Source: Terriglobus roseus | GTDB lineage: Bacteria > Acidobacteriota > Terriglobia > Terriglobales > Acidobacteriaceae | NCBI RefSeq assembly: GCF_900105625.1 | Contig: NZ_FNSD01000001.1 | Span: 2,790,001-2,854,000, forward strand | Length of the DNA: 64,000 nucleotides | Direction of reading: 5' to 3' | In this document: positions 14,657 through 64,000 of the stretch, piece after piece | How the letters are laid out: every line of letters starts with the position of its first letter | Position numbering within the stretch: position 1 is the first letter of the stretch | Notes under the pieces: generated by a model | What the model saw: only the letters and a program-made list of their open reading frames with translations | Databases searched by the model: none | Told to the model about the DNA's origin: nothing | Made by a program: the position numbers and the translations under genes

Positions 14657-14739
14657 TGGAGTCTCCTTTGAAGACTTCTTGGGTTAGCCCTCGCTCAGTG
14701 CTGGTAACACTGTGTGGGGGCGTTACTGTTTGCCCGCTG

Positions 14740-47215: not shown

Positions 47216-47265
47216 CATGGAGTCAGTCCTTAAAAAGCTCGGAATACCTGGATGTTTTGCGAAAC

Positions 47266-48459: not shown

Positions 48460-48500
48460 GAGTCTGCTCCTATACGGAAATAAGTCTGTTTGGGCGGAGA

Positions 48501-49640
48501 TCATTTCGCCGCCCAGTATGCCTGCGCTCCCACGTGTTCGGGATCGTCCGGCAGATTGGCCAGAATGGCGCGACGGATCTGCATGAGGTCAATCTCACCT
48601 TGTTCGTGAAAGAGGACGTCGCCACGCGGCGAAAGCAGTACCGTCACTGGAACTGCTGACCCCGCGTTGGGGTCAAAGGCGTCCTGCATGGCGTACGTGT
48701 CATCGGAGCCATAGAGCAAATTCGCAGTGGTAGCGTTCATCCTCTTGAGAAAGGCGAGCACCTCGGGCTGCTCTGCCGGCACGTTGGACGAGACCGTGGT
48801 GAAGGCGAACGCGCGATCGCGATACATGCGATTGGTCGCCATAAGATCTGGAAATTCGGTGACACAAGGTCCGCACCAAGTGGCGTAGAAGTTGACCAGC
48901 AGCAGCTTACCCGTGGGATTTTGCCGAAGCTTCGAAAGCATTTGTGCGCTGGCGAGTGTAACGCTAATGGGGCCGTTGTCGATGGTGGCTTTGACCTCTG
49001 CATGCGGTCCCAGATGAAGCGTGCAACCTGCCGCCTTGGTCGACGCCACAGAGACTGGCTTCTCCGCGAGAAGCTCTTCCACTGCGGTTGTCGCGCTATG
49101 CACGGTGGCCGGGCCATTTGCTGGATCGCTGTCGAAGCTGCCGGTGTAGCGGAGCTTGCGATTCTTGTCGAAGATGAAGACGGACGGAGCGACCGTTGCG
49201 CCGAAGGCCTCAGCGGTACTGCCGGTATTGCCGTCATACAGATAAGGGAAGTGGAAGTTGCGGAAGGTGGCCCGCTCCTTCATCTCCTCAAGGCTGTCGC
49301 CCACGTCGGACCATGCGAGGTCCTTCTCTGTAACAGCCTTTGGATTACTCGACTGGATTGCGACGACGGAGACACCGTTGCCGGTGAATCTCTTGGTCAT
49401 GTCGTTCAGGCGGGACTCGTAGAGCTGCGATTCCGTGCAGTGGTTGCATAGAAAGGCGACGACCAGCACCTGGCTCTGCTGCCAGTCAGCGGGTTTGTGA
49501 ACGACACCGTCCGTTCCCGGAAGGCTGAAGGCCGGCAACGCATCCCCGAGCGCGAGCGGCCTCGCCGTCGCCTGGCCCCAACCGGCCGACACGGAGACTG
49601 CTACCAACATAAGAAGGATGGCGGGAAAATTTCTGCGCAC
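48501..49640 (-). CDS. Double thioredoxin-fold protein with WCGPC active site
   Basis: 379 residues from a GTG at 49640, with a signal peptide (to about 23). The first domain is redoxin-like with FLCNHCTESQ. The second is a full thioredoxin/TlpA-type domain with NFYATWCGPCVTEFPDL. It probably acts as a periplasmic thiol reductase or peroxide-linked redoxin. Homologous over its whole length to the next gene, separated by 41 bases. Confidence 0.85.
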   Translation of the reverse strand: MRRNFPAILLMLVAVSVSAGWGQATARPLALGDALPAFSLPGTDGVVHKPADWQQSQVLVVAFLCNHCTESQLYESRLNDMTKRFTGNGVSVVAIQSSNPKAVTEKDLAWSDVGDSLEEMKERATFRNFHFPYLYDGNTGSTAEAFGATVAPSVFIFDKNRKLRYTGSFDSDPANGPATVHSATTAVEELLAEKPVSVASTKAAGCTLHLGPHAEVKATIDNGPISVTLASAQMLSKLRQNPTGKLLLVNFYATWCGPCVTEFPDLMATNRMYRDRAFAFTTVSSNVPAEQPEVLAFLKRMNATTANLLYGSDDTYAMQDAFDPNAGSAVPVTVLLSPRGDVLFHEQGEIDLMQIRRAILANLPDDPEHVGAQAYWAAK

Positions 49641-49752: not shown

Positions 49753-50745
49753 CTAGCGCAGCGGTCTACCGGCGATGGTTGCTGCCGTCGTGTCGCGTGA
49801 CAGGTTCGGATTGGCCGCAAAGCCTCCGCCCTGTCCCTGCGGACGCGGTGGCGCATTCGGATTCACCGGGCTGCGCGCGATGTATAAAAACCACTCCGTC
49901 TTGTCCTTGCTCAGGTTCAGATTAGAGTGATCGGTCTTGCCGGTCGGCGGCACCAGGTAGGACGAGTTCTGTTGCATCTCTCGCAGTTCGCTCCCGATGA
50001 GTACGGGGATCGTCCCGGGCGACAGCTTCGTCCAGACCTCTTCCATACCCTGCGGATGGCTATGTGGTTGCGATACAGACCACGGTGGCAGCATGACGGT
50101 GTAGATTCGCTCGCCCTGAACCAGACCATCGGCTGTGCCGAAGATGCAGTGGGAGGCATTATTCCAGTGCGCGTTCTCCTCGCACCACGGCAACGCGTAG
50201 CTGTTGCGGACGATCAGGGCCTTCTTCGCATCGGGCCCCGCTGTCCATTGCAGCATAATCATCTCGAGCGGCTTGTCCGACGTGTTGACTAAGCGATGCG
50301 GCACGGATGGAGGCACCATGATGGCGATACCATCTTTCAAGTCCCACATCTGCTTGCCATCATCCAGTCGACCTTCGCCGCTCTTCACATAGAAGAAGTA
50401 GCTGTCCGGGTAGGTTTCGAGCGGCGTCTGCGCGCCCGGCAGCAGCTTGGCAGTCGCAAGATTCTTCCGGTACTGCAGCACCTGGCCGTAAGCGCCGGGA
50501 TGGTCCGGGTCGCCGGGACCCAGGATCTGCTGGATAAGCAGCGTGCCGTGCGACAGGTGGACCGGCTGATCTTCCGGCCTGCGAAGGAAGCGATCGATGG
50601 AGACGCCCTCATCCTCATTGCTGCGAACTGCCGGTGCCCGTCCAGCAGCAGCCGGTGCCGCCGACGCGGGAGGTGTGGCCGCGGGTGTCTGCGCGTAGCT
50701 GCAGCCGAGGCCGCCAAGAAACAGGGCAATGCAGGCGAGCTTCAT
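49753..50745 (-). CDS. Secreted bicupin protein
   Basis: About 330 residues from the ATG at 50745 with AAAGGA upstream; the longer frame is rejected. A signal peptide ends near residue 19, followed by an Ala/Pro-rich linker. Two cupin domains follow. The first has GEGRLDDG...MVPPSVPHRLVNTSDKPLEMIMLQW. The second has SQPHSHPQGMEEVWTKLSPGT, with the His-x-His of the metal site. Substrate unknown. The promoter region carries the CCTGT-N3-ACAGG operator shared by the sugar-acid locus, so it belongs to that regulon and not to the redox genes next to it. Confidence 0.8.
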   Translation of the reverse strand: MKLACIALFLGGLGCSYAQTPAATPPASAAPAAAGRAPAVRSNEDEGVSIDRFLRRPEDQPVHLSHGTLLIQQILGPGDPDHPGAYGQVLQYRKNLATAKLLPGAQTPLETYPDSYFFYVKSGEGRLDDGKQMWDLKDGIAIMVPPSVPHRLVNTSDKPLEMIMLQWTAGPDAKKALIVRNSYALPWCEENAHWNNASHCIFGTADGLVQGERIYTVMLPPWSVSQPHSHPQGMEEVWTKLSPGTIPVLIGSELREMQQNSSYLVPPTGKTDHSNLNLSKDKTEWFLYIARSPVNPNAPPRPQGQGGGFAANPNLSRDTTAATIAGRPLR

Positions 50746-50828
50746 GGATTTCCTTTCGTACCTGACTGTTCGTGAAAGGTCGGAACGGGCGGGTGTGCCC
50801 TGTCTTTCGCGCCCAAAGCATAGCGGCA

Positions 50829-50846
50829 ACCTGTAGCACAGGTCAA
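50829..50846 (-). promoter_or_regulatory. Regulon operator 1, before the bicupin gene
   Basis: A perfect dyad ACCTGT-AGC-ACAGGT (50829-50843) overlaps the minus-strand -35 TTGACC (50846-50841). Confidence 0.75.
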
Positions 50847-50904
50847 CCGGTGATTGAAAATTTCGCGCAGGTCGTTTGAGCCTCTGTCGCACGGCAGGAA
50901 GTCG

Positions 50905-50921
50905 TTGACCTATCCAACAGG
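50905..50921 (+). promoter_or_regulatory. Regulon operator 2, before the mutarotase-fold gene
   Basis: TTGACC (50905-50910) is followed by CCTAT-CCA-ACAGG (50909-50921), one mismatch from the dyad. A TACTAT -10 lies 18 bases on. Confidence 0.65.
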
Positions 50922-50971
50922 CTGTTGCTACTATTCGCACGTTCCGACACAAACACCCAAAGGAATCCCGA

Positions 50972-51994
50972 ATGACGATGAGGGCTGTACTGAGCGTTTC
51001 GATGGCCGCATGTCTTTGCGCCGGCATGCAGGCCCAGGCGCCGCAGGCCGAGATCAGCAATGGCGCGATTCGCGCGAAGGTGTACACGCCGGATGCCAGG
51101 ACCGGATTCTATCGGGGGACACGCTTCGACTGGTCCGGCGTGATCAGCGATCTGGAGTTTGCCGGACATCATCTTTACAAGCCGTGGTTCGCTTCCACAG
51201 ATGAGACGGTGCGCGATTTTTCGTATGTGGGAGACGGAATCGTCGCGGCTCCGAACAGTGCCATGACGGGGCCTGTCGAAGAGTTCCAGAGGCCTATCGG
51301 CTATGACACCGCAAAACCAGGAGAGACGTTCCTCAAGGTTGGTGTTGGCCTGCTTCGAAAGGCGGATAACGATCCGTACCAGTTCGGAAAACATTTCGAG
51401 CTGGTAGATGGCGGCAAGTGGATCACGCGTAAGACCGCCACGTCCATCACCTTTGAGCAGGTGCTGGGAGGTGCGGATTCGACCTACGGCTACGTGTATA
51501 CCAAAACGCTTCGACTCGTGGGGAAGGAGTCGAAGCTGGTGATCGAGCACCATCTCAAAAACACGGGCAAAACTTCCATCGCCACCGCTGTTTATGATCA
51601 CAACTTCCTCACGATCGATAGCGCCGGTGTGGGTTCGGCATACACGGTGACGGTGCCGTACACGATCAAGCCGACTCGATCACCCGACCCGAAGTTTGTC
51701 ACCATTGAGGGCAGCAAGGCCACTTACATTGCGGATCTCCATGACAAAGATCGCGTTGCATTTGGTCTGCAGGGATTTGGTGGAGCTGCGAGCGATTATG
51801 ACTTTCGCATCGCAAACTCTGCCGCGCAGGTCGAGGTACGAATGCAGGGAGACCGGCCATTATCCAATGCGAGTGTCTGGTCGATTCGCGATGTGCTGGC
51901 CGTGGAACCGTTTGTGGACATCAGTGCTGAACCGGGGAAAGAGATGTCCTGGTCTTACACCTACACGTATACCGACCTGGCAAAACATCGCTGA
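50972..51994 (+). CDS. Galactose-mutarotase-fold exported protein
   Basis: 340 residues with a signal peptide (to about 23). The chain is beta-rich, beginning EISNGAIRAKVYTPDARTGFYRGTRFDWSGVI; later blocks (YTKTLRLVGKESKLVIEHHLKNTG) and an HNFL segment resemble aldose-1-epimerase-like domains, which open sugar rings or bind carbohydrate. This form is common in acidobacterial genomes and usually annotated hypothetical. The operator upstream and a terminator after it make it a monocistronic member of the regulon. Confidence 0.75.
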   Translation: MTMRAVLSVSMAACLCAGMQAQAPQAEISNGAIRAKVYTPDARTGFYRGTRFDWSGVISDLEFAGHHLYKPWFASTDETVRDFSYVGDGIVAAPNSAMTGPVEEFQRPIGYDTAKPGETFLKVGVGLLRKADNDPYQFGKHFELVDGGKWITRKTATSITFEQVLGGADSTYGYVYTKTLRLVGKESKLVIEHHLKNTGKTSIATAVYDHNFLTIDSAGVGSAYTVTVPYTIKPTRSPDPKFVTIEGSKATYIADLHDKDRVAFGLQGFGGAASDYDFRIANSAAQVEVRMQGDRPLSNASVWSIRDVLAVEPFVDISAEPGKEMSWSYTYTYTDLAKHR

Positions 51995-52054
51995 TTCAAC
52001 GGCGATACCGGCCTTTCGAGGTTTTTCTACCTGTAGAACACGACGGATGTTGAA

Positions 52055-52079
52055 CGGGCCCTGCAATTTGCAGGGCCCG
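52055..52079 (+). terminator. Terminator after the mutarotase-fold gene
   Basis: Perfect 11-bp stem CGGGCCCTGCA / TGCAGGGCCCG with an ATT loop; no long T run follows. Confidence 0.7.
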
Positions 52080-52157
52080 ACTTCGTTATGCCCCAGCAGG
52101 CCGCTTTTTAACGTACCCGCGCTGCTTCAGGTCGAACAAAAAAAGTTTTTGAGATGC

Positions 52158-52175
52158 TTGACCTGTTGTACAGGT
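52158..52175 (+). promoter_or_regulatory. Regulon operator 3, before the TonB receptor
   Basis: TTGACC (52158-52163) fused to a perfect ACCTGT-TGT-ACAGGT dyad (52161-52175). A TATTGT -10 lies 18 bases after the -35. Confidence 0.8.
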
Positions 52176-52272
52176 AGTTGCTATTGTTCGTCCGTCTCCG
52201 AGGAAGGACCAATACCTGGAGCGAACGAAATCCGGAAGCGGATCGCTGGCGGGATTTTCGGGAGGAGTTGAA

Positions 52273-55200
52273 ATGAGCAACCGCAATACTTTTCTGAGGC
52301 TGGTTCCAGTGGTCCCTCTCGCGTTCCTCGCCTGCACTGCAGCGTATGGACAGGCGAGTGGGTCGCTGGTGGGTACGGTGACCGATGCTGGTGGCGCCTC
52401 CGTCCCGAACGCGAACGTAACCTACACCAACGTGGGCACCAATGAGACGAAGACGGCCAAGACGGATGACAGCGGCAACTACCAGTTCCTGCAACTGCTG
52501 CCCGGCAACTACCGTATTACGGTCGAGGGCAATGGCTTCAAGCAGTTCGTCCGCACAAACGTTGAGGTGACGCTGAACAACGCGACACGCATCGACGCCG
52601 CAATGCAGTTGGGTGGCGTCACGGAGACCGTCGAGGTCTCTACGGAAAGCCCGCTTGTCAGCACGCAGTCGTCTTCGTTGAACTACGAAGTGGGCGCCAA
52701 GCAGGTGGATGCACTGCCGCTGAACGGACGCAACGTGCTGAACCTGACAGCGCTGGTTCCCGGCGTTGTACCGCAAGGAAATACGTCGGGTAACGCATCC
52801 ACGCTGAATGTCAATGGCTGGGGAAATTATCAGATTGGCGGAGGCGCAGCGAACCAGAGCCAGACATTCATCGATGGCGCGCCCGTCAACATCAGCTATA
52901 CCAACAGCACCTCGCTGGTGCCAACGCAGGATGTCATCCAGGAGTTCCAGGTTGCGACCAATAACGTGTCGCCGGAGTTTGGACGGTTCGCCGGCGGCGT
53001 GATCAACATGGCGACCAAGGCCGGCACCAATGACCTGCATGGCACCGCTTATGAGTACTACCGCAACGCAGCGTTGAACGCGAACCTGTACTTCAACAAG
53101 CACAATCCGGCGAACCTGATCGATAGACCTCTGTTCACGCAGCACCAGTTCGGTGCGGCCATTGGTGGACCCGTCATCAAGAACAAGACGTTCTTCTTCT
53201 TGAGCTGGGAGGAGTTCAGCCTGAGGCAGGCAGCTACCACGACGACAACGGTACCGAGCGCGGCCTTTCTTGCAGGAGACTTCAGTTCCATCTGCACGAG
53301 CAGCTTTAATTCGGCAGGCGTCTGCAACACGGCGAGCCAGCAGATCTATGACCCGATTAACAAGGACGTGAACGGCAATCGTTTGCCTTTTGCAAACAAC
53401 AGAATTCCAGGCACGCGGCTGAACGCTTCCGCGATCGCAATTGCAAAACTGATTTTTCCTGCACCGACCAATAACGGCCTGACGAATAACTTCGTCGTCA
53501 GCGTGCCGCGTCAGACGGTCTACAACCAGTACAGCGCGCGCTTCGATCACCAGTTGAATGCCAAGAACCAATTGTTCGCGCGCTTTACGAACTGGCACAA
53601 GAATCGTTCGGGTTCGTCCGCACTTCTGAACCAGATCGGCAACAACGCAAACTTCGGCACCATCCAGACCGTTGTTGGTGATTCCTTCACGTTGACACCG
53701 AACCTTGTAGGACAGGCGCGGGCATCCTATCTGCGGTTCCGGAACCAGTCGATCCCGTTCCTCTGCTGCAGCTTCAACGAAGGCTCGCTGGGCGGTAACT
53801 GGGGAAGCTATCAGAGCCAAATTGCCTTTGCGCAGGCACCGCAGCCAAATATTACGGGCTTCAATAACTTCAGCACCGGTGCCACCATTCTCGATACAGA
53901 CAATGCGTATGTGTTGTCGGGAAGCCTGAATTGGACGCGCGGACGTCACTCGATCCAGTTCGGTGGTGAGTCTCGCCGCATTGAATGGGGTTATGTGCAG
54001 TCCAACAGCCCAGGCGGCACCTTCACGGCGGATAACCAGTTCACCGCAACCAGGACTGGCGGCACGGGTGGTTACAGCTTCGCAAGCTGGGCCCTAGGGT
54101 TTCCATCATCCGGAAGCGCGCAGGAGCCGTCGCAGTCTCTTGGCACCATGTACTACTCGGGTCTGTTTGTCGGTGACTCGTTTCGCTTGAACAAGCGACT
54201 TACAATCAACGCCGGCTTGCGTTGGGAGCAGCCTGGTTCCTTCCATGAGCGCAACGGCAGCCTGACGACGCTGGACCTGACGCGCCCGACGAATTTGCCC
54301 GCGGTGAATGGCAAGGTACCTGTTGGCGGCCTGTCGCTGGTCGACACGGACCGTCAGTCGAGCCGCAACTGGCAGAACCTGCATTGGACACTCTTCTCGC
54401 CACGCGTTGGATTTGCCTTCAGCCCGAATGAGAAGTCGGTACTGCGCGGAGGCTTCGGTATCTCGTACCTGCCGAACACGGTTGCGTTCAGCCTTGGACC
54501 GTACAACAACCCACCGAACAGTGCGACGACGACGATGAATGTGTCGAACAACGGCAACGTGGATCCGAACACAGCCACGACGCTCAGCAACCCATTTCCG
54601 AGCGGCATTCTGCAGCCGCCGGGTCGTAACCAGGCTGCGCTGGCCCTCGTCGGTCAGGGCATCCAATCGCCACTGCCAAGCACGAGCTATCCCTATGCCG
54701 AACAGTGGAACCTCGGACTGCAGCACCAGTTTGGTCAGGGTCTTGTGGTGGATGCCGGCTATGTCGGATCGCACGGTGTCGACCTGCCGCTGTACTCCAT
54801 CAACCATAATCAGTTGCCCTACCAGTACATCGCGCAGGGCGCCGCAGCAATGGCGACGAAGGTTGCGAATCCGTTCTTCGGCATCGCTCCTTCCACGTCG
54901 GTGCTGGGTGGCCAGACCATCAGCCAGGGCTACCTGTTGAGACCGTTCCCGCAGTACCTCTATGTCACGGAAGACGCGCCGGCTATCGCAGGCTCTTCTT
55001 ACCAGGCGTTGCAGGTGCGAGTGGAAGAGCGATTCAAGTCAGCCGGCGTACTGCTCGTCTCGTACACGCATGCGCATCTCGAAGGCACGGCCGATACGCT
55101 GACCGGGTACCTGGAAGGCAGCCGCTTTGGCGTCGGCGGTGCCTCCGGCGTGCAGGACAACAACAACATCGCGGGCGAGTACTCGAAGTCAAGCTTCGAC

Positions 55201-55794
55201 ATCCCGGATCGCGCGGTCATCAGCTATACCCTCGGTCTGCCCTTTGGTCGCGGAAAGGCACTGCTCAGCAACGCGAATGGCTTCGTGGATCGTGTCGTGG
55301 GTGGATGGACGTTGAACGGCATCTTCACCTTCCAGTCGGGTCTGCCGATTGCGTTCCAGTACTCAAGCCCCAACACGCTTGAGACGCTCTACGCCGCAGG
55401 CAATGCGGGCCCCGGTCTTCCAGCCGGTGTCTCGCGTCCCGACTATGTCGCGGGCTGCAAGAAGACCATTGATGGAGCACCGAAGGACAAGTTGACCAAG
55501 TACTTCAACACGGCCTGCTTTGTGAAATCAAACGATTTCGCTTTTGGAAACGAACCACGTGTCGATGACACACTTCGCGCGCAGGGGCAGAACAACTTCG
55601 ATCTCTCCCTCGCAAAGAAGATCCCGGTAACAGATCGGTTCAACTTCGATCTTCGCGCGGAGTCGTTCAACCTGTTTAACCGGACGCAGTTTGCACCGCC
55701 GAACGCACAGGTGGATGTGTCCACGTACGGCACGGTCACGACGCAGGTTAACCAGCCACGTTTAATCCAGCTTTCGGCGCGCGTCAGCTTTTAA
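52273..55794 (+). CDS. Oar-like TonB-dependent outer-membrane receptor
   Basis: 1173 residues with a signal peptide (to about 29). Residues about 30-115 form a carboxypeptidase-regulatory-like beta-sandwich (GSLVGTVTDAGGASVPNANV), then a plug domain and a long barrel that ends in VSF. This is the giant TonB-dependent receptor type found in large numbers in Acidobacteria; it takes up oligosaccharides or other large substrates through the outer membrane. The operator upstream places it under the same control as the sugar-acid genes, so it is the probable uptake route for this locus. A terminator follows. Confidence 0.93.
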   Translation: MSNRNTFLRLVPVVPLAFLACTAAYGQASGSLVGTVTDAGGASVPNANVTYTNVGTNETKTAKTDDSGNYQFLQLLPGNYRITVEGNGFKQFVRTNVEVTLNNATRIDAAMQLGGVTETVEVSTESPLVSTQSSSLNYEVGAKQVDALPLNGRNVLNLTALVPGVVPQGNTSGNASTLNVNGWGNYQIGGGAANQSQTFIDGAPVNISYTNSTSLVPTQDVIQEFQVATNNVSPEFGRFAGGVINMATKAGTNDLHGTAYEYYRNAALNANLYFNKHNPANLIDRPLFTQHQFGAAIGGPVIKNKTFFFLSWEEFSLRQAATTTTTVPSAAFLAGDFSSICTSSFNSAGVCNTASQQIYDPINKDVNGNRLPFANNRIPGTRLNASAIAIAKLIFPAPTNNGLTNNFVVSVPRQTVYNQYSARFDHQLNAKNQLFARFTNWHKNRSGSSALLNQIGNNANFGTIQTVVGDSFTLTPNLVGQARASYLRFRNQSIPFLCCSFNEGSLGGNWGSYQSQIAFAQAPQPNITGFNNFSTGATILDTDNAYVLSGSLNWTRGRHSIQFGGESRRIEWGYVQSNSPGGTFTADNQFTATRTGGTGGYSFASWALGFPSSGSAQEPSQSLGTMYYSGLFVGDSFRLNKRLTINAGLRWEQPGSFHERNGSLTTLDLTRPTNLPAVNGKVPVGGLSLVDTDRQSSRNWQNLHWTLFSPRVGFAFSPNEKSVLRGGFGISYLPNTVAFSLGPYNNPPNSATTTMNVSNNGNVDPNTATTLSNPFPSGILQPPGRNQAALALVGQGIQSPLPSTSYPYAEQWNLGLQHQFGQGLVVDAGYVGSHGVDLPLYSINHNQLPYQYIAQGAAAMATKVANPFFGIAPSTSVLGGQTISQGYLLRPFPQYLYVTEDAPAIAGSSYQALQVRVEERFKSAGVLLVSYTHAHLEGTADTLTGYLEGSRFGVGGASGVQDNNNIAGEYSKSSFDIPDRAVISYTLGLPFGRGKALLSNANGFVDRVVGGWTLNGIFTFQSGLPIAFQYSSPNTLETLYAAGNAGPGLPAGVSRPDYVAGCKKTIDGAPKDKLTKYFNTACFVKSNDFAFGNEPRVDDTLRAQGQNNFDLSLAKKIPVTDRFNFDLRAESFNLFNRTQFAPPNAQVDVSTYGTVTTQVNQPRLIQLSARVSF

Positions 55795-55823
55795 GGATGC
55801 GCTGGTAAGTGGTCCTCCCAACA

Positions 55824-55857
55824 AGGGCCGGCACACTCCCTGTGCCGGCCCTGCTTT
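55824..55857 (+). terminator. Terminator after the TonB receptor
   Basis: 11-bp stem GGGCCGGCACA / TGTGCCGGCCC with a CTCCC loop and a short T run. Confidence 0.85.
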
Positions 55858-55894
55858 ATCCGGATGACATAATGGGGATGGGGAATTGAACTTA

Positions 55895-56587
55895 ATGCCG
55901 ACGGATTCGCTGACAACCCGTGTGATCGATCACGTATTCGATCACATACGGCTGAATGGACTTACTTCCGGCGAAACACTGCCTTCCGAGATGCGCACCA
56001 GCACTGATCTGAAGATCAGTCGCGGCATCGTGCGTGAGGCCTTCCGTTCGCTGGAAGTGGCAGGCATTATCGAGAAGGGAAATGGTCGCTCGCCTAAAGT
56101 CGGTGAACTGAACAATTCCTTCCTGACACACCTGATGCTGCACGCTCTTTCGACCAGCCAGGTATCCATGAAACAGGTACTTGAGATCCGAACACTGCTG
56201 GAAGTTCATGCAGCGCAGATGGCTGCGAAGCGCCGCACGAAGTCCGATATTGCACGTCTTCGAGCAGCAGTCAGCGGCATGAAAAAAGCAGCGGGCACGC
56301 CCGACGTGTTCGTTGCGCATGACCTCGAATTTCACGCCGTCATCGATGGTGCCACGGGTAATCCGCTCGTCGATATGATGTGTGGCGCAATGCATGAATG
56401 CATGCAGCAAACGATGCGTGTGGGCATTGTGAATCGCAGGGCAAAGGCCGACATACTCAAGGTGGTGGAAACTCACCATCAGATTGTCGATGCAGTCGAA
56501 GAAGGTAACTCGCAACGTGCCGGTGTCCTGATGCGGAAGCACTTTGAAGAAGCGAAAAAGTCCATCGCGCGTTCCGGCGTGGAGTAA
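55895..56587 (+). CDS. FadR-subfamily GntR transcriptional regulator
   Basis: About 230 residues from the ATG at 55895, with a GGGGAA site upstream. The N-terminal winged helix (about 5-70) has the GntR pattern (LPSEMRTSTDLKISRGIVREAFRSLEVAGIIEKGNG). The C-terminal FCD domain (about 85-215) shows the expected metal or ligand residues (HDLEFH, VETHHQIVDA, MRKHFEE). FCD regulators respond to small organic acids and commonly bind sites with a GT-N3-AC core, which the dyads of this locus contain. It is the only regulator in the locus and the natural candidate for the CCTGT-N3-ACAGG sites. Its own promoter lacks the dyad. Confidence 0.93.
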   Translation: MPTDSLTTRVIDHVFDHIRLNGLTSGETLPSEMRTSTDLKISRGIVREAFRSLEVAGIIEKGNGRSPKVGELNNSFLTHLMLHALSTSQVSMKQVLEIRTLLEVHAAQMAAKRRTKSDIARLRAAVSGMKKAAGTPDVFVAHDLEFHAVIDGATGNPLVDMMCGAMHECMQQTMRVGIVNRRAKADILKVVETHHQIVDAVEEGNSQRAGVLMRKHFEEAKKSIARSGVE

Positions 56588-56665
56588 CTTCGTGCTTCGC
56601 CAAAGACCTCATTTGCGATGTGTCATGGGCTCTGCACGCACCTCGAAATATCGCCTCGGAACTCG

Positions 56666-56683
56666 TTGACCTGTCCTACAGGT
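56666..56683 (+). promoter_or_regulatory. Regulon operator 4, before the PQQ dehydrogenase
   Basis: TTGACC (56666-56671) overlaps the dyad ACCTGT-CCT-ACAGGT (56669-56683). A TAGATT -10 follows after 18 bases. Confidence 0.8.
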
Positions 56684-56728
56684 GCATGCTAGATTTCTGC
56701 AGTTACCTGCCCGTTCCCAGGAGCTGTC

Positions 56729-58630
56729 ATGAAACTTCGTCTCCGGCGGTTTGCCATTTGCCTGCCACTTTCCATCGCCCTTAGCTGCGCAGCACAGTCG
56801 GTTGGCGATTGGCCCATGTATGGGCATGACGACGGCAGCAGCCGCTACTCCCCTCTGACAGATCTCAACCTGAAGAACGTTGCAGGGTTGAAGCGTGCGT
56901 GGACGTACCACATGGCGCCCGCCACAACCGTAGCGGCGCCGGCTCCACCGGCGGGCTCGCTGGCCGCCCGTCTGCGCCAACGCCGGACGGAAACCACGCC
57001 GCTGATGGTGAATGGCATGCTCTTCCTTCCTACGCCCTACAACTCTGTCCTCGCGCTGGATCCGGTCACGGGCAAGCAGATCTGGGAGCATAAGCTGGCC
57101 GCGGGTGCGAACGCGTCGACCCGTGGCGTTGCCTACTGGGGCGGTAGCGGCACGACGCCCGCACGGATCGTCTTTGGCACGAGCGACGGCCTGCTGATCG
57201 CGCTCGACGCGAAGACAGGCGAGCCCGCTGCAGGTTTTGGTACTGACGGCATCGTGGACATGAAGCCGGGCGTGCAGAACGGCATTGCAAACGCGCGTGT
57301 CAGCATGACGTCTCCTCCCAGCATCTATAAGAACGTCATCATCACCGGCTCTGTCGTGCAGGAGTCGCCAAGCATCGGCGCCTCGGGTGATGCACGCGGA
57401 TGGGATGCCGTGACCGGCAAACTGTTATGGCAGTTCCACTCCGTGCCACGGCCCGGCGAGCCTGGTAATGAAACGTGGGAGACACCGGATTCGTGGAAGG
57501 ATCGCTCCGGCACCAACGCGTGGGGCTTCCTCAGCGTCGATGCGCAGACTGGCCAGGTGTTTCTGCCGTTTGGCTCACCGACGACCGATGCCTACGGCGG
57601 GGACCGCAAGGGCAATAACCTGTACGGTGATTCGCTGGTGGCACTGGACGCGAGCACCGGCAAGCTGAAGTGGTTCTACCAACTGATTCACCACGACACG
57701 TGGGATTACGATCCCGAATCTGCGCCGATTCTCGTCACGGTGCACCGCGGCTCGAAGAAGATTCCTGCGGTGGTGGTGACCTCGAAGACGGGACTGATCT
57801 TCGTTCTGGATCGCAACACCGGCAAGCCTGTCTACGACGTGAAGGAGACAGCCGTACCAGCGAGCGATGTTCCGGGTGAGTTCTCCGTCAACACCCAGCC
57901 GGTGCCGGCGAAGCCTGCTCCGCTGGCAAGGATGAGCTTCGATCCGAAGGACATTGCAACGGTCACGCCAGAGCACCAGAAGTTCTGCGAGAACCTGCTG
58001 AAGTCCGACGGTGGTCTGCACAACGATGGTCCGTTCACACGTTACGGGTTGAAAGGTTCCATCGTCTTTCCGGGCACGCTCGGTGCGACGAACTGGCATG
58101 GTGGCTCCTACGATCCGAAGTTAAATTACGTCTTCTTCAACACCATTGAGTTGGCAGATGTAGGCAAGGACACTCCGGCTCCTGCGGGATCGCCCTGGCC
58201 CTATCAGCGCGCAGGCTATGGACGCTTCTGGGACGGTGACAAGTATTGGCCGTGCCAGCAGCCGCCATGGGGCCAGATGGTTGCATTGAACCTCGACACG
58301 GGTGAGTATGCGTGGCGTGTGCCGCTCGGCATCATCCCGGAGCTCGATGCGAAGGGTGTTCATAACACCGGCGCGATGAACATGGGCGGCAGCATTGCAA
58401 CAGCGGGCGGGCTCGTATTCATCTCTGCCACGAACGATCATCACTTCCGCGCCTTCGACGCGAAGACCGGCAAGATCGCCTGGGATACCGAGATGGAAGC
58501 GGGCGCCTACGCCACGCCAATCACCTACAAGGCCAAGGATGGCAAGCAGTACGTTGTCATCGTGGCGACTGGCGGCGGATATTACGACAAGACGGGTGGT
58601 GACAGCGTTGCCGCTTACGCTCTACCCTAG
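56729..58630 (+). CDS. Periplasmic PQQ-dependent dehydrogenase, glucose/quinate-dehydrogenase type
   Basis: 633 residues with a signal peptide (to about 23) and no membrane domain, so a soluble periplasmic quinoprotein. The eight-bladed propeller starts GDWPMYGHDDGSSRYSPLTDLN. It contains HHDTWDYDPES (PQQ/Ca site region) and WPCQQPPWGQMVALNLDTGEY, the block typical of glucose, quinate and related dehydrogenases, and ends with TAGGLVFISATNDHHFRAFD. It would oxidise a sugar or polyol in the periplasm and pass electrons to a cytochrome; the heme gene at 62096 is a candidate partner. Under operator 4. Confidence 0.88.
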   Translation: MKLRLRRFAICLPLSIALSCAAQSVGDWPMYGHDDGSSRYSPLTDLNLKNVAGLKRAWTYHMAPATTVAAPAPPAGSLAARLRQRRTETTPLMVNGMLFLPTPYNSVLALDPVTGKQIWEHKLAAGANASTRGVAYWGGSGTTPARIVFGTSDGLLIALDAKTGEPAAGFGTDGIVDMKPGVQNGIANARVSMTSPPSIYKNVIITGSVVQESPSIGASGDARGWDAVTGKLLWQFHSVPRPGEPGNETWETPDSWKDRSGTNAWGFLSVDAQTGQVFLPFGSPTTDAYGGDRKGNNLYGDSLVALDASTGKLKWFYQLIHHDTWDYDPESAPILVTVHRGSKKIPAVVVTSKTGLIFVLDRNTGKPVYDVKETAVPASDVPGEFSVNTQPVPAKPAPLARMSFDPKDIATVTPEHQKFCENLLKSDGGLHNDGPFTRYGLKGSIVFPGTLGATNWHGGSYDPKLNYVFFNTIELADVGKDTPAPAGSPWPYQRAGYGRFWDGDKYWPCQQPPWGQMVALNLDTGEYAWRVPLGIIPELDAKGVHNTGAMNMGGSIATAGGLVFISATNDHHFRAFDAKTGKIAWDTEMEAGAYATPITYKAKDGKQYVVIVATGGGYYDKTGGDSVAAYALP

Positions 58631-58646
58631 GAGGACGGGCGGTCTT

Positions 58647-58659
58647 CCTGTTTAACAGG
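58647..58659 (+). promoter_or_regulatory. Regulon operator 5, before the KDG kinase
   Basis: The dyad CCTGT-TTA-ACAGG lies 85 bases before the ATG at 58745. The TTGACC -35 seen elsewhere is absent. Confidence 0.6.
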
Positions 58660-58744
58660 GTAAGAGTGTCGTGGCTGCTTCTGCAGCGGTCGCGCTTCCG
58701 CATGACAATTTCCAACGTAGCGGCTTGCCGCGTCCGAAAGTGAT

Positions 58745-59842
58745 ATGAACGCAAACGGTGGGCTGCAGATTCGCTCTGCTGAGACATGTAAGTGGGATCT
58801 ATTGAGCCTGGGCGAAGTGATGCTCCGCTTTGATCCCGGCGAGGACCGCATCTCGCGCACACGGCACTTTCGTGTGTGGGAGGGTGGCGGCGAATACAAT
58901 GTGGCGCGTGGTCTGCGCCGGTGCTTCGGCATGCGCACCTCGCTGGTGACAGCGCTCGCAGACAACGCCGTGGGTCGCCTGCTGGAAGACATGATGCTGC
59001 AAGGTGGAGTGGACCTGAGCCATCTGCGCTGGACTGCCTTCGATGGCGTGGGGGAAGCCAGCCGCAATGGCGTGTACTTCCTGGAGCGTGGCTTCGGCAA
59101 CCGGCCGGCGATGGGCATGATGGATCGTGGTCACACGCCCATCTCCCAGTTGCAGCCGGGCGACGTCGATTGGGACAGCATCTTCGGGGCAGAAGGGGTG
59201 CGCTGGTTCCACACCGGCGGCATCATGTGTGCGCTGTCCGCGTCTGCCACTGAGGTAGTGCGTGGGGCGATGACCTCAGCGCGTCGCCATGGCGTCCTGG
59301 TTTCTTACGACTGCAACTATCGGCCGTCGCTGTGGAAGCGTCGCGGCGGAAGACAGGGCGCTGCATCGATCAATCGTGAGCTTGCGCCGCTGGTGGATGT
59401 GCTGCTGGGCCACGATGGCGATCTTGCACGGGAAATCGGCGCATCGTCGCAGGGACCGCCGTCGCACGATGAAGAGAGCTACGCAGCGATGGCGCGGGGC
59501 ATCTGCGGTGACTTCCCGAACATCCAGGCGATCGCCACCACGACGCGCAAAGCGACCGTTGCCAATCGGAATGACTGGGGCGCCTTCGCCTGGATGGACG
59601 GCGAGGTGTATCGCGGTGCGCAGTACAACGATCTCGAAATCTTCGATCGCGTGGGTGGTGGTGATTCTTTCGCAGCGGGCTTGTTCTACGGCCTGATGAA
59701 CAATCGTGGCATGCAGTGGTCGCTGGACTGCGGCGTGGCGCACGGCGCCCTCGCCATGACAACCGCGGGAGACAACTCGATGTTCACACTGGCTGAGGTG
59801 GAACACGCCATGACCCGCAACGGCGCCGCCGTGCAACGCTAA
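58745..59842 (+). CDS. kdgK: 2-keto-3-deoxygluconate kinase, PfkB family
   Basis: 365 residues. The PfkB ribokinase fold is shown by GEVMLRFDPGEDRISRTRHF and GGGEYNVARGLRRCFG near the start, and the catalytic GGGDSFAAGLFYG at 304-316 with base Asp307. Sequence and neighbourhood (KDPG aldolase 15 bases downstream) fit phosphorylation of 2-keto-3-deoxygluconate to KDPG, the Entner-Doudoroff entry point for sugar acids. Cytoplasmic. First gene of a two-gene operon under operator 5. Confidence 0.88.
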   Translation: MNANGGLQIRSAETCKWDLLSLGEVMLRFDPGEDRISRTRHFRVWEGGGEYNVARGLRRCFGMRTSLVTALADNAVGRLLEDMMLQGGVDLSHLRWTAFDGVGEASRNGVYFLERGFGNRPAMGMMDRGHTPISQLQPGDVDWDSIFGAEGVRWFHTGGIMCALSASATEVVRGAMTSARRHGVLVSYDCNYRPSLWKRRGGRQGAASINRELAPLVDVLLGHDGDLAREIGASSQGPPSHDEESYAAMARGICGDFPNIQAIATTTRKATVANRNDWGAFAWMDGEVYRGAQYNDLEIFDRVGGGDSFAAGLFYGLMNNRGMQWSLDCGVAHGALAMTTAGDNSMFTLAEVEHAMTRNGAAVQR

Positions 59843-59857
59843 GGATAAGGAACTGAT

Positions 59858-60508
59858 ATGGACAGGACAGCAGTTTTAGAGCGTATTGGACAGGTCGGCG
59901 TCTTGCCGGTGCTGCGAGCCAGCACAAGCGACGCGGCCATGGCACTTGCCGATGCAATCGCAGAGGGCGGCATCGCAGCGCTTGAGGTCACCATGACAGT
60001 CCCCGGCGCGATCGGCGTGATGCGGCGACTGGTCACGGAACGGCCGGAGTTGTTGATTGGCGCAGGCACCGTGCTGGATCCGGAGACGGCGCGCATGTGC
60101 ATCCTGGAGGGCGCACAGTTCGTCGTCAGTCCTGCGCTGAATCTTGCGACGGTTTCGCTTTGCCGGCGCTATTCGGTTGCCGTGCTTTCAGGCGCGCTGA
60201 CACCCACTGAGGTCATCGCTGCCTGGCAGGCCGGCACTGACATCATCAAGGTCTTTCCGGCCAGCGCCATGGGCGGTGCCAAGTATCTCAAGTCACTCAA
60301 GGCGCCGCTGCCGCAAGTGGAGCTGATCCCGACCGGTGGGGTGTCGCTGTCGAACGCTCGCGAGTTTCTGGAGGCAGGCGCCTTCGCGCTTGGTGTCGGT
60401 GCAGACCTTGCGGATGAGAAAGCAATCCTGGAAGGCCGCGCGCAGGATGTCACGGCCATCGCCAGGAAGTACGAGGCGATTGTGCGCGAGTATCAGTCGA
60501 CCTTCTAA
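59858..60508 (+). CDS. eda: 2-keto-3-deoxy-6-phosphogluconate aldolase
   Basis: 216 residues, normal length for the class I KDPG aldolase family. Glu43 in ALEVTMT and the Schiff-base Lys131 in DIIKVFPAS are both present, and the Gly-rich phosphate site IPTGGVSLSNA follows. It cleaves KDPG to pyruvate and glyceraldehyde 3-phosphate. It lies 15 bases after the KDG kinase, so the two steps are co-expressed. A dehydratase producing KDG is not in the window. Confidence 0.93.
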   Translation: MDRTAVLERIGQVGVLPVLRASTSDAAMALADAIAEGGIAALEVTMTVPGAIGVMRRLVTERPELLIGAGTVLDPETARMCILEGAQFVVSPALNLATVSLCRRYSVAVLSGALTPTEVIAAWQAGTDIIKVFPASAMGGAKYLKSLKAPLPQVELIPTGGVSLSNAREFLEAGAFALGVGADLADEKAILEGRAQDVTAIARKYEAIVREYQSTF

Positions 60509-60540
60509 ATCTTCAGCAAGTATCCCAGTAGAGACGAGCG

Positions 60541-61875
60541 CTACTCGGCTAGCGCCAGGTCGCTCGTCTCTGCCATGGCGTCTACCTGTTGTACGGGTCG
60601 CAGCACCAGGATCAGGATTCCTGACACCGTCAGTGCAACGGACATCAAGAGGTAGCCTGCCTTGGAATTTCCCGTAGACGCCTGCAGATAGCCCACGAGA
60701 TAGCTGCCAAGGAACGAGCCAAGCGCTCCCATGCTATTGATCAGCGCGGTGACCTCGCCGGCGACGTTGCCCGGGAGCATCTCTGGAATGATGGCGAAGA
60801 ACGGGCCGTAGGGTGCGTACATGGCGCCACCGGCAAGGATCAGGAAGCCGAAGGCGACGAAGAAATTCATGCCGGCCGTCAGATAAGACCCGAAGAATGC
60901 TGCGCCTGCGAGTATGAGGAACGGCCACACAAAGCGTGTTCGCTGCGCCGTGCGGTCTGAGTAGAAGCTGACAACGATCATCAGCAGGGCCGCGACCGCG
61001 TAAGGGATAGCGCTCAGCAGGCCGGTGGCACCAATGCCTTGTGACGAACCTTTGCGGATCATCACCGGCAGCCACAGCACGAAGCCGTAGACGCCGATGG
61101 ACCAGAAGAAATACTGCAGGCAAAGCAGGATGACGTTAGGGTTCCGCAGCGCCACGGTAAGGCTCGCCACCTTCGGGATAACGCCTTGCTCGCTCGCCAG
61201 TGTGGCCGTCAATTCCTGGGCAGACTCCTTGCTGATCCATGCAGCATCTTCCGGCTTGTCGCGAATGACGAAGTACCAGACAACGCCCCACAGCACCGAC
61301 GGCAGACCTTCAATGATGAAGGTCATCTGCCATCCGAAGGCCTTGATGATGTAGCCCGTCACCGCGGACATCCAAAGCACCGTGACCGGATTTCCGAGGA
61401 TGAGCATGGTGTTCGTGCGTGAGCGCTCCGACCGCGTGAACCACTTGGTCAGCAGGATTAACATGCCCGGCAGGATGAAGCTTTCGGCCGCACCCAGTAA
61501 CAGGCGATCTGCGGCGAGCCACCAGTACGACTTTATGACGCCGGTCAGCGAAGCGAGAATGCCCCAGCTGATGAGCGACAGGAAGATAAGCTTCCGAGCG
61601 GAACGCTTGCGGGCGTAGGCTGCGCCGGGAATCTGGAAGATAAAGTAGCCGAAGAAGAACAGGGAACCCAGGAGCGCCGACTGTGCGGCGGTGATGTGCA
61701 GTGTTTCCGCCAGGCCAGCCGCTGCGCCAAAGCCATAGTTCGCGCGATCGACGTACGCAAGACTGTACGTAACGAAGACGGCAGGAATAATGTAGAGCCA
61801 GCGACGCTTCAGGTCGGGATATTTCGAGAGATCAGTGGTAGCCGCGCCGGAGCTTTGAGAGGGTTCGAAAGCCAT
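60541..61875 (-). CDS. MFS transporter, anion:cation symporter type
   Basis: 444 residues with 12 hydrophobic segments. The family signs of the ACS (hexuronate/phthalate) group are present: YVDRANYGFGAA after helix 1 and a PGAAYARKRSARKL loop. It likely imports a sugar acid such as glucuronate or gluconate across the inner membrane by proton symport. Convergent with the eda operon, with operator 6 in front of its own promoter on the minus strand. Confidence 0.88.
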   Translation of the reverse strand: MAFEPSQSSGAATTDLSKYPDLKRRWLYIIPAVFVTYSLAYVDRANYGFGAAAGLAETLHITAAQSALLGSLFFFGYFIFQIPGAAYARKRSARKLIFLSLISWGILASLTGVIKSYWWLAADRLLLGAAESFILPGMLILLTKWFTRSERSRTNTMLILGNPVTVLWMSAVTGYIIKAFGWQMTFIIEGLPSVLWGVVWYFVIRDKPEDAAWISKESAQELTATLASEQGVIPKVASLTVALRNPNVILLCLQYFFWSIGVYGFVLWLPVMIRKGSSQGIGATGLLSAIPYAVAALLMIVVSFYSDRTAQRTRFVWPFLILAGAAFFGSYLTAGMNFFVAFGFLILAGGAMYAPYGPFFAIIPEMLPGNVAGEVTALINSMGALGSFLGSYLVGYLQASTGNSKAGYLLMSVALTVSGILILVLRPVQQVDAMAETSDLALAE

Positions 61876-61968
61876 CGTTCATCCTTCTTGATTTCAGGAG
61901 CACCGCAGTCGAAAGATTGCCGACGCGCATCCCACCAGTCTGTACGGTGTGCGTGAGACTACCAGTAT

Positions 61969-61985
61969 CCTGTTAAACAGGTCAA
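61969..61985 (-). promoter_or_regulatory. Regulon operator 6, before the MFS transporter
   Basis: CCTGT-TAA-ACAGG (61969-61981) overlaps the minus-strand -35 TTGACC (61985-61980). Confidence 0.75.
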
Positions 61986-62040
61986 CAGCCGATAACGCCG
62001 GAATTACAGGCGCACTCGCTACGATCTTCCATGCGTCCGA

Positions 62041-62057
62041 TTGACCTGTCCAATAGG
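62041..62057 (+). promoter_or_regulatory. Regulon operator 7, before the cytochrome c gene
   Basis: TTGACC (62041-62046) fused to CCTGT-CCA-ATAGG (62045-62057), one mismatch from the dyad. It lies 60 bases from operator 6, so the two divergent promoters may be bound cooperatively. Confidence 0.65.
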
Positions 62058-62095
62058 AGTTTGATACGCTCCTCCCGTTTGACGGAGGTGCCTGC

Positions 62096-62605
62096 ATGCG
62101 GTTGGGAAGCTGGATCAGCAGCGCGGCCATGGCGACGGGAGCGTTGTTCCTGCTGCTGCCGGCGCTGGCTGGGAACTACGTGCAGACGCCCCCACCCGCG
62201 AAGGATCTGCCGCCCGGGGCGGGACATGATGCCTTTGTGCGAGTGTGCAACGGCTGCCACGTCACGGCTCTTGTTACTTCTCAGCGCAAGTCGGCCGATG
62301 ACTGGGCCTCGGTCGTGATTGAAATGCGCAATCGTGGCGCAGTGGGATCGGACCAGGATCTTGAAGACATTGTGGGGTATCTCGCTGCCAATTTTGGTCC
62401 CGCTGCCGCACCCGTTCGCGTGAACGTCAATAGCGCTTCCGCTGCCGAAATCGCCGGCGCGCTTTCCTTGCCTCTCGCACAGGGAAATGCGATCGTCGAG
62501 TTCCGCGAAAAGAGCGGCAAGTTCAAAGACATCACAGCGCTGGAACAGGTGCCGGGCGCAGACACCGCCAAGATGGAAGCTGCGAAAGACCGCATCGATT
62601 TCTGA
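62096..62605 (+). CDS. Cytochrome c with C-terminal helix-hairpin-helix domain
   Basis: 169 residues with a signal peptide (to about 25). One CNGCH heme motif at 51-55 is followed by a likely Met ligand in VVIEMRNRGA. The last 60 residues (VRVNVNSASAAEIAGALSL...FKDITALEQVPG) are a ComEA-like helix-hairpin-helix. The combination is seen next to PQQ dehydrogenases in acidobacteria; the heme domain is a plausible electron acceptor for the enzyme at 56729. First gene of a three-gene unit under operator 7. Confidence 0.88.
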   Translation: MRLGSWISSAAMATGALFLLLPALAGNYVQTPPPAKDLPPGAGHDAFVRVCNGCHVTALVTSQRKSADDWASVVIEMRNRGAVGSDQDLEDIVGYLAANFGPAAAPVRVNVNSASAAEIAGALSLPLAQGNAIVEFREKSGKFKDITALEQVPGADTAKMEAAKDRIDF

Positions 62606-62624: not shown

Positions 62625-63098
62625 ATGAAGCAGTGTCAACTTACCGTCCCTACCCTGCTCGCAGGTGCAGCCGTGTTGCTGTCCGGCGTGGCCCATGCAC
62701 AAAGCCTGCCACCGCAGAAGCGCCAGGCAACACCGGAGAAAGTAATCGCGGAACATATCGCGGCGCTGAATGCCTGTGACTGGAATCGCATGATGGCACA
62801 GTACAGCGACAACGTGGAATTCCTCTCAAAGGACGGCAATGTCGTCAAAGGCCGTGAGGCCATTGGAAAGATGTTCAAGACGGCACTGATGCCGCCGGCA
62901 AAGGGTGGCCAGTGCGGCATGAAGCTCATCCCGGAACACACGGTCGTTGTGGATGGCACGGTGAACGTGGTGTGGCGTGCAGAGGCTCCCTTCTTCGCCG
63001 AACCGTATAAGGGTTCTGAGGCGTTCGAGACGAAGGATGGCCTGCTGGTGTTACAGGTGACCACGTGGGATCCGGCCGCCATCAAGATGAAGAAGTAG
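62625..63098 (+). CDS. Exported NTF2/SnoaL-like protein
   Basis: About 157 residues from the ATG at 62625, with GGAGAG upstream and a signal peptide to about residue 26. The mature part has the cone-shaped NTF2-like pattern (EHIAALNACDWNRMMAQYSDNVEFLSKDG, then a beta-sheet ending in VTTWD). Such proteins bind small ligands or act as isomerases. Function unknown. Second gene of the cytochrome unit, 19 bases after it. Confidence 0.82.
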   Translation: MKQCQLTVPTLLAGAAVLLSGVAHAQSLPPQKRQATPEKVIAEHIAALNACDWNRMMAQYSDNVEFLSKDGNVVKGREAIGKMFKTALMPPAKGGQCGMKLIPEHTVVVDGTVNVVWRAEAPFFAEPYKGSEAFETKDGLLVLQVTTWDPAAIKMKK

Positions 63099-63127: not shown

Positions 63128-64000
63128 ATGAATCGCCTTATCACCACGCTGGCTTTCGCTGCTCTCTTCGCACTGCCCTGTGCGGCACAGACGCCATCGC
63201 AGCCGCGCGAGTCGCTGACGAAGGCGCAGTTCGATGAGATGTTTCACAAGCTTTCGAACTGGGGGCGCTGGGGTAAGGACGAGCAGAAGGGCACGCTGAA
63301 TCTGATCACGCCGGCGAAGCGTCAGCAGGCGGCAAAGCTGGTGACGGCGGGTATCTCTGTCTCCCTGGCGCGCGACCTCAATACGGCGAAAGAGATCGAT
63401 AACCCCGATCCATTTCAGGATGCGATGGCGCTTGGCGCTGACGGCAAGTTCAACACCGACACTTACAAGGTGAACTTCCACGGCTTTGGCTTCAGCCACT
63501 TTGATGCGCTGTCGCATACCTTCTACGACGGCAAGCTTTACAACGGATTTTCTGACCATGCGATTACACCTCATGGCGGCGAAGTGCTCGATGCCACGCA
63601 ATATCGTGATGGCATCTTCACGCGTGGTGTTCTCATCGACATCCCCTGGCTGCGCGGCCTGCCTTATCTCGAAAAGACGGGTCACATCTCTGCCGCGGAC
63701 CTCGATCTCTGGGAGCGTAAGACCGGCGTGCATGTGACCTCGGGTGATGCCGTGCTGATCCGGACGGGGCGTTGGGCTCTGCGCAATGCGAAGGGGCCAT
63801 GGGACATCTCCAGCGCCGCTGCCGGTCTCGATCCTTCAGCGGTCGCATGGCTTCACAAGCGGGACGTGGCCTTCCTGGTGAGCGACGCCGCGCATGACGC
63901 GCTACCGTCTGCGGTCCAGGGCATCGACTATCCCATCCACATCCTGACCATTGTGGCGATGGGAATGTCCCTCGCGGATCAGTGCAACCTGGAGGATGTC
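63128..64000 (+). CDS. Cyclase-family metal-dependent hydrolase, cut by window end
   Basis: At least 291 residues; the stop lies beyond the window. A signal peptide ends near residue 21. The metal motif GFSHFDALSH (His124, Asp126, His130) is that of the cyclase/kynurenine-formamidase family, and a SDAAHDAL segment lies near the end. In this context, downstream of a PQQ dehydrogenase system, a lactonase-like role on sugar lactones is possible but not shown. Third gene of the cytochrome unit, 29 bases after the NTF2-like gene. Confidence 0.85.
   Translation, partial: MNRLITTLAFAALFALPCAAQTPSQPRESLTKAQFDEMFHKLSNWGRWGKDEQKGTLNLITPAKRQQAAKLVTAGISVSLARDLNTAKEIDNPDPFQDAMALGADGKFNTDTYKVNFHGFGFSHFDALSHTFYDGKLYNGFSDHAITPHGGEVLDATQYRDGIFTRGVLIDIPWLRGLPYLEKTGHISAADLDLWERKTGVHVTSGDAVLIRTGRWALRNAKGPWDISSAAAGLDPSAVAWLHKRDVAFLVSDAAHDALPSAVQGIDYPIHILTIVAMGMSLADQCNLEDV

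Follow-up and report, generated by a model that had tools for sequence, protein, structure and literature searches.

Among the closest described counterparts of the system presented here is DgoR of Escherichia coli, which represses via inverted repeats that overlap the promoter, with D-galactonate as the releasing ligand (PMC12288454). More generally, regulators of the FadR subfamily mostly recognize TKGT/ACMA boxes with 3 nt between GT and AC, according to a comparative survey (Suvorova et al., 2015; PMC4494728). Here we describe a cluster of seven dyads of the form CCTGT-N3-ACAGG in the soil acidobacterium Terriglobus roseus. The stretch analyzed, hereafter the window, comprises 64 kb of contig NZ_FNSD01000001.1 (genome of 4.81 Mb, 2 contigs), and the dyads lie within 11.2 kb of it (50829..62057, the cluster). 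With a probability of roughly 80%, on the basis of sequence comparison, these dyads are the operators of the GntR-FCD protein encoded at 55895-56587, which would thereby govern a local repressor regulon for the oxidation, uptake and cleavage, via 2-keto-3-deoxygluconate (KDG) and its 6-phosphate (KDPG), of a sugar or sugar acid.

The resemblance to the dgo system lies in a FadR-family regulator, in inverted repeats overlapping a promoter and in a role in sugar-acid catabolism (PMC12288454). The targets in T. roseus likewise include a major facilitator superfamily (MFS) relative of the galactonate transporter together with enzymes of 2-keto-3-deoxy sugar acids, and six of the seven dyads begin inside the -35 hexamer. 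Unlike DgoR, for which two close repeats are described at one operon that includes the regulator gene, the locus would carry seven dispersed single operators over 11 kb; their sequence is different, no self-operator lies directly upstream of the regulator gene, and an outer-membrane receptor, a pyrroloquinoline quinone (PQQ) dehydrogenase and a cytochrome would belong to the regulon. The two proteins may share a way of working, and we do not class the regulator as a DgoR. With the operators in the subfamily survey the locus shares the palindrome, the 3 nt between GT and AC and a protein composed of a GntR winged helix and an FCD domain, whereas its arms read CCTRT/AYAGG, in which the K position is T and the usual G is either G or A (PMC4494728).

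Among solved structures the nearest relative of the regulator is LldR (CGL2915) of Corynebacterium glutamicum (PDB 2di3; E 2.5e-17, aligned over 9-220). Within the FCD domain, one Asp and three His residues align between the two proteins, and they are predicted metal ligands. LldR responds to lactate, whereas the targets here are sugar-acid genes. We know of no experimentally described sugar-acid regulon from acidobacteria, and none was found among the matches listed for the open-access literature (subscription papers and supplements lay outside this search); the operator spellings led to no relevant paper there either, and the operator type was not found in print.

Dyads and the predicted promoters they overlap

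The preliminary description of this DNA, made from the sequence alone, had listed seven dyads, and a scan of the window located every one of them, five in the exact form (13-mer starts 50830, 52162, 56670, 58647 and 61969) and two with a single change (CCTATCCAACAGG at 50909 and CCTGTCCAATAGG at 62045). All seven are intergenic, though intergenic DNA makes up only 1005 of the 11229 bases (9%) of the cluster. Six of them are preceded by TTGACC, as had also been claimed, in such a way that the last two bases of the hexamer are the first two of the dyad; these fused sites lie on the plus strand at 50905, 52158, 56666 and 62041 and on the minus strand at 50830-50846, facing the bicupin gene, and 61969-61985, facing the MFS gene. 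The dyad at 58647 has no TTGACC or -35 box on either strand. Two further one-mismatch dyads, at 52030 and, inside the MFS gene, at 60585, were absent from the earlier list and both lack TTGACC.

The six fused sites share one architecture, TTGACC followed by 18 bp and a TAnnnT box (6/6 at 18 bp, the -10 box being assigned by script as the best among spacings 15-19), and the dyad runs from base five of the -35 hexamer into the initial part of the spacer. By its sequence, one predicted 30-bp unit is thus promoter and operator at once at these six sites. A blind sigma-70 scan of 50700-62200 returned five promoter-like sites (shuffles 3.4 +/- 1.9), four of which are fused sites.

This geometry supports promoter occlusion, which had been suggested as the likely mechanism, and repression is the likely sign of control. 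A regulator dimer sitting on the dyad would keep RNA polymerase off the -35 box; binding of a small metabolite to the FCD domain, probably of a sugar acid or an intermediate of the KDG type, would release it. The transcription units would then be induced jointly, and between them they would cover outer-membrane uptake, periplasmic sugar handling, PQQ-linked oxidation, inner-membrane uptake and the phosphorylation of KDG with cleavage to pyruvate and glyceraldehyde 3-phosphate. Ahead of the KDG kinase gene, the dyad at 58647 might act as a roadblock or as a secondary operator. Directly upstream of the regulator gene no such dyad is found in the window, and this gene may be transcribed by read-through from the receptor promoter. 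A G+C-rich inverted repeat lies between the receptor and regulator genes (55824-55850); as it is not among the terminator-like matches of our scan, such read-through is possible.

The clustering of the exact form is pronounced. Five exact copies within 12 kb constitute the largest cluster of any 5-bp dyad with a spacer of 0-8 in the window (next best, three), and in 100 third-order Markov simulations, each of 64 kb, no such dyad attained five copies (the best was two in 65, three in 32 and four in 3). Genome-wide, the exact CCTGT-N3-ACAGG occurs at 8 places, 5 of them in the cluster, vs about 5.5 expected from base composition. The three exact dyads elsewhere (L038-L040) were considered as distant members of the regulon and rejected; they lack TTGACC, and their number is at chance level. 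A scan of the whole genome had been set beforehand as a test, and in it the exact fused 17-mer TTGACCTRTNNNAYAGG was not scattered: it occurs at six places, all in the cluster, and its five one-mismatch copies all lie outside. Since this pattern was partly fitted to the cluster sites, the independent tests are those in other genomes.

Operators and regulator genes in other genomes

A syntenic relative is L023, a contig of a metagenome-assembled genome (Umea3_bin-3611), whose gene order is that of the window: bicupin, mutarotase-fold protein, receptor, regulator (65% identical), KDG kinase, aldolase, MFS transporter, SnoaL-like and cyclase-type protein, without the gene for the PQQ enzyme. Fused operators are present at 4713(-), 4777, 6001, 10718 and 14454(-), and one with a single mismatch at 14528. 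Over the six window/L023 pairs, ungapped identity amounts to 78% for the 17-mer, to 67% for the 13 bases after it and to 27-29% for flanks of 70-80 bases on either side; the pairs were aligned in register on the operator, by which operator identity is partly forced and that of the -10 stretch is not. Gapped alignment of the flanks gave 38-51 matches in 78-99 columns, figures that come without a baseline. The fused promoter-operator at 10718-10741 shares bases with the 3' end of the regulator frame and, with the PQQ gene missing after it, would now serve the KDG kinase.

Close homologues of the regulator are rare. Matches at E 1e-20 or better were found in 12 of 200 family genomes, four of them close (the window's genome, G000, and G031, G095 and G180, the latter three at 54% identity); the eight others, at 26-34% identity, were taken as other FCD proteins and left out of the counts, as was L025, a 27%-identical FCD protein of Bhargavaea. 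The four represent 4 of 19 genus genomes, and in the class 7 of 399 genomes have a match at E 1e-35 in a search that scored at most seven candidates per genome. All four family genomes with a close homologue hold the core ACCTRTNNNAYAGGT two to three times, while among the 196 others 39 hold a single copy and none holds two or more (counted by eye); in eight genomes of the same genus, the core dyad was found in 4/4 with the regulator and 0/4 without it. In G031, G095 and G180, two core dyads about 820 bp apart flank the regulator gene, one of them between it and a divergent receptor gene. Only a few bases after this dyad, these three genomes carry GGAAGCGCTTCC in the gap from receptor to regulator gene (L042 19542-19575, L044 19390-19423 and L047 599-620). 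It is presumably a palindrome of LacI-family type and lies beside genes resembling araA and araD; a second regulator is possible.

Three genomes of another family (G440, G459 and G495) encode regulators of 41-43% identity. An exact TTGACCTGTTTAACAGG lies between the regulator and the mutarotase-fold gene in G495 and G440, and G495 has two further fused sites, of which one is exact and the other differs at a single base. In the stretches examined of the three genomes, neither a KDG kinase nor an aldolase was recognized. Mutarotase-fold homologues occur in 99 of 399 class genomes. The best 30 loci of these 99 genomes were scanned with up to 1.5 kb of flank each, and the operator was present at three (G000, G495 and G440), in each case beside the regulator; it was absent at the remaining 27, namely 26 from genomes without a close regulator match (0/26) and one from G459. 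The operator therefore follows the regulator and not the mutarotase target gene. Altogether, an exact core dyad was found near seven of nine regulator homologues examined (window, L023, G031, G095, G180, G440 and G495), a degenerate one in G459 and none outside a gene in L024. The scan of related acidobacteria thus bore out that the fused operator goes with the regulator gene, and with it the earlier proposal of the FadR-subfamily protein as the most likely binder.

Searched alone, the exact fused form gave 11 matches in the 200 family genomes, six in the window's genome, two in G095 and one each in G180, G071 and G088. Its reversed control gave nine single matches in nine genomes, so that the five copies outside the window's genome represent no excess. 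As candidate members of the programme these copies were rejected: L094, L097 and L098 lie inside open frames, L095/L096 lie in a gap near a KaiC-like gene, and no programme gene was recognized.

The regulator, its DNA recognition and competing explanations

The protein encoded at 55895-56587 exceeds the cut-offs of PF00392 (GntR winged helix; 35.3 bits, cut-off 27) and PF07729 (C-terminal FCD domain; 96.6 bits, cut-off 24.3). It reached no NCBIfam equivalog of the FadR subfamily (0/19 listed models over cut-off; the best was NanR, with 111.8 bits vs a cut-off of 260). The preliminary description had called it the only regulator present, which holds for the cluster; the genome encodes seven FCD proteins including this one. 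The recognition segments of the six others all differ from its SRGIVREA, and around their genes we found no dyad with up to two mismatches at three (1.1-1.2 kb examined) and two-mismatch matches only at the other three.

Eighteen sites were tabulated, gathered with patterns that allow G or A in the GT core. Their constant parts are the CCT arm and the T/A next to the centre, and T stands in place of K before the G of the GT core in 18/18. It had been argued that a GT-N3-AC core fits the FadR consensus; the 3-nt spacing indeed matches, but the GT core is not invariant, and the argument is a soft one. By our own alignment to E. coli FadR, the residue at position 28 of the helix-turn-helix would be Met or Leu here. 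Such a residue, combined with T at the K position, agrees with the rule, stated in the survey, that Arg at this position is linked with G or C at K (PMC4494728). Tentatively, and at slightly less than even odds, the regulator may represent a separate DNA-recognition class of the FadR subfamily, which would read the outer CCT/AGG arms, tolerate G or A where the subfamily reads G, and carry Met or Leu where Arg is common within an SRG(I/V)VREA segment. Its operator and a sigma-70 promoter would form a 30-bp composite unit that at least two families of acidobacteria have retained, or gained anew, in front of different sets of genes.

A number of observations weigh against the assignment of the dyads to this regulator. 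Dyads at up to two mismatches number 34 in the window vs 25.6 +/- 4.8 in shuffles, 4 of 100 shuffles being as high. Genome-wide there is no excess of dyads with at most one mismatch (139 vs 153 for the reversed control, per strand) or of the fused form with at most two (47 vs 50, both strands). The near-chance count in the window, with two mismatches allowed, speaks for a chance cluster or an artefact of repeated DNA. Such an origin has a very remote probability, given that the exact-form clustering was matched in 0/100 simulations, that the exact fused form is confined to the cluster and that the operators are kept in L023 while the ungapped flanks differ. Loose counts alone are misleading in either direction, and the exact form is the proper test. 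The comparison across genomes has weak points as well: G031, G095 and G180 are close relatives that amount to about one independent event, no TTGACC is fused to the dyads that adjoin their regulator genes, and a reversed control of the core is also present two to three times in many family genomes, which makes two matches alone not striking. It is the closeness of the core dyads to the regulator, not their number, that is striking. Furthermore, G459 has a two-mismatch site only, the 3.2-kb contig L024 has no dyad in the gap between regulator and PQQ genes and a one-mismatch match only inside a gene, and the G of the GT core is not constant among the tabulated sites (G in 12/18, A in 6/18).

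The dyads could also belong to another DNA-binding protein encoded elsewhere, with the local GntR-FCD gene as a bystander or a partial player. In G095 (L083 1502, C1:489456) and G180 (C2:469625), the probable start of a different FCD-type gene is preceded by an exact core dyad, so that another regulator might read this dyad, and the number of FCD proteins in the T. roseus genome leaves room for such a binder. We nevertheless consider this quite improbable, as dyad clusters follow the present regulator gene across two families and the six other FCD proteins have different recognition segments and, nearby, no dyads or only those with two mismatches. The different FCD-type gene of G095 and G180 precedes an apparent sugar-phosphate isomerase-type gene; at the similar gene of the window's genome (L139), no dyad with up to two mismatches occurs in the stretch examined. 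Alternatively, operators and regulator might be real and the protein an activator which, from a position over the spacer and the -35 box, assists RNA polymerase at a weak promoter. The spacer that holds the dyad does measure 18 bp, 1 bp more than usual, and the -10 boxes match poorly; activation is still unlikely in our view, since the dyad covers part of the -35 hexamer, the spacers of the related promoters in G495, G440 and G459 are 17 bp long, and sugar-acid regulators of the subfamily such as DgoR repress by promoter overlap (PMC12288454). A local regulon of the FadR-subfamily regulator is strongly supported by the sequence comparisons, in line with the local regulon first proposed, the exact fused operator being found in the cluster in 6/6 cases.

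Proposed target genes and catabolic programme

The features of the locus are collected in the table below, and the target list of the preliminary description is supported.

Table 1. Predicted sites and genes of the proposed regulon (positions in the window)
Feature	Position	Strand	Remarks
Site 1, composite promoter-operator facing bicupin gene	50817..50846	-	-35 TTGACC 50846-50841; dyad 50829-50843; 18-bp spacer; -10 TATGCT 50822-50817; exact fused pattern; blind sigma-70 scan match; L023 counterpart 4713(-)
Site 2, composite promoter-operator of mutarotase-fold gene	50905..50934	+	-35 50905-50910; dyad 50909-50921; -10 TACTAT 50929-50934; exact fused; sigma-70 scan match; L023 4777; gene also with fused operator in G495, G440
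Site 3, composite promoter-operator of outer-membrane receptor	52158..52187	+	-35 52158-52163; dyad 52161-52175; -10 TATTGT 52182-52187; exact fused; sigma-70 scan match; L023 6001
Site 4, composite promoter-operator of PQQ dehydrogenase	56666..56695	+	-35 56666-56671; dyad 56669-56683; -10 TAGATT 56690-56695; exact fused; sigma-70 scan match; L023 10718, after regulator gene body, PQQ gene missing there
Site 5, exact dyad without -35 box, between PQQ dehydrogenase and KDG kinase	58647..58659		weaker L023 match nearby at 10764 (3 mismatches to fused pattern)
Site 6, composite promoter-operator of MFS gene	61956..61985	-	-35 61985-61980; dyad 61969-61981; -10 TAGTCT 61961-61956; exact fused; L023 14454(-); not among sigma-70 scan matches
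Site 7, composite promoter-operator of cytochrome/helix-hairpin-helix gene	62041..62070	+	-35 62041-62046; dyad 62045-62057; -10 TACGCT 62065-62070; exact fused; L023 14528 with one mismatch; not among sigma-70 scan matches
FadR-subfamily (GntR-FCD) regulator, proposed binder of all seven dyads	55895..56587	+	PF00392 and PF07729 above cut-off
Bicupin (Cupin_2), apparent signal peptide (by eye)	49753..50745	-	PF07883; 69% identical in L023
Mutarotase-fold protein	50972..51994	+	no Pfam family; predicted fold resembles aldose 1-epimerase-like structures
TonB-dependent-receptor-type outer-membrane protein	52273..55794	+	PF25183, PF13620, PF07715
PQQ-dependent dehydrogenase	56729..58630	+	PF01011; nearest NCBIfam model glucose/quinate/shikimate family, under its cut-off
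PfkB kinase, probable KDG kinase	58745..59842	+	PF00294; best solved relative 2afb (2-keto-3-deoxygluconate kinase), E 5.6e-42
KDPG/2-keto-4-hydroxyglutarate (KHG) aldolase	59858..60508	+	PF01081; TIGR01182 above cut-off
MFS transporter, nearest to D-galactonate transporters	60541..61875	-	PF07690; TIGR00893 below cut-off; 6e9n E 2.7e-15
CxxCH cytochrome-like protein with helix-hairpin-helix domain	62096..62605	+	PF12836; CxxCH motif by eye
SnoaL-like protein, probable downstream member of cytochrome unit	62625..63098	+	PF12680; also after corresponding site in L023
Putative cyclase, running past window end, probable downstream member of cytochrome unit	63128..64000	+	PF04199 in window genome and in L023

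Judged by their sequences, the targets fit a programme of outer-membrane uptake, PQQ-linked oxidation, galactonate-type MFS import and conversion by KDG kinase and KDPG aldolase, and family and structure searches point to a substrate chemistry of galactonate or gluconate type. The kinase, the transporter and the PQQ enzyme each stay below the NCBIfam cut-offs. The mutarotase fold of the 50972-51994 protein is supported by a middling structural model (predicted local distance difference test score, pLDDT, 69.6; template modelling score, TM, about 0.5), and the search for structural relatives of the bicupin matched small cupins only. The CxxCH cytochrome is a possible acceptor for PQQ-linked oxidation. 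In L023, the cytochrome gene seems from the sequence to have been deleted together with the PQQ gene, and this joint loss fits a partnership between the cytochrome and the PQQ enzyme. In that contig, the frame preceding the SnoaL gene (14548-14700) contains a short stretch like the C-terminal end of the cytochrome/helix-hairpin-helix protein (by eye).

An uptake-to-pyruvate programme had been proposed for these genes. Its uptake, oxidation and KDG kinase/aldolase parts are represented by predicted genes; a dehydratase linking an aldonate to KDG was sought in the regulon and is not there. Elsewhere in the genome, two IlvD/Edd-type and five enolase-superfamily proteins over cut-off are candidates for this step, none of them at an exact fused operator. 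The regulon adjoins three minus-strand genes at window positions 46745-49640, two of AhpC/TSA type and one with a DsbD N-terminal domain, without an exact dyad; just past the window end (L041 2210-3295), it is followed by a type III polyketide synthase-like gene with chalcone/stilbene synthase domains.

Altogether, the regulon adds a new and well-supported case to a type of gene control that is already familiar, and in it regulator, operator, promoter and target list together are directly testable at the bench. It ties an uncharacterized mutarotase-fold protein and an uncharacterized bicupin to a catabolic programme, and it provides a set of inducible promoters in a group for which genetic tools are scarce.

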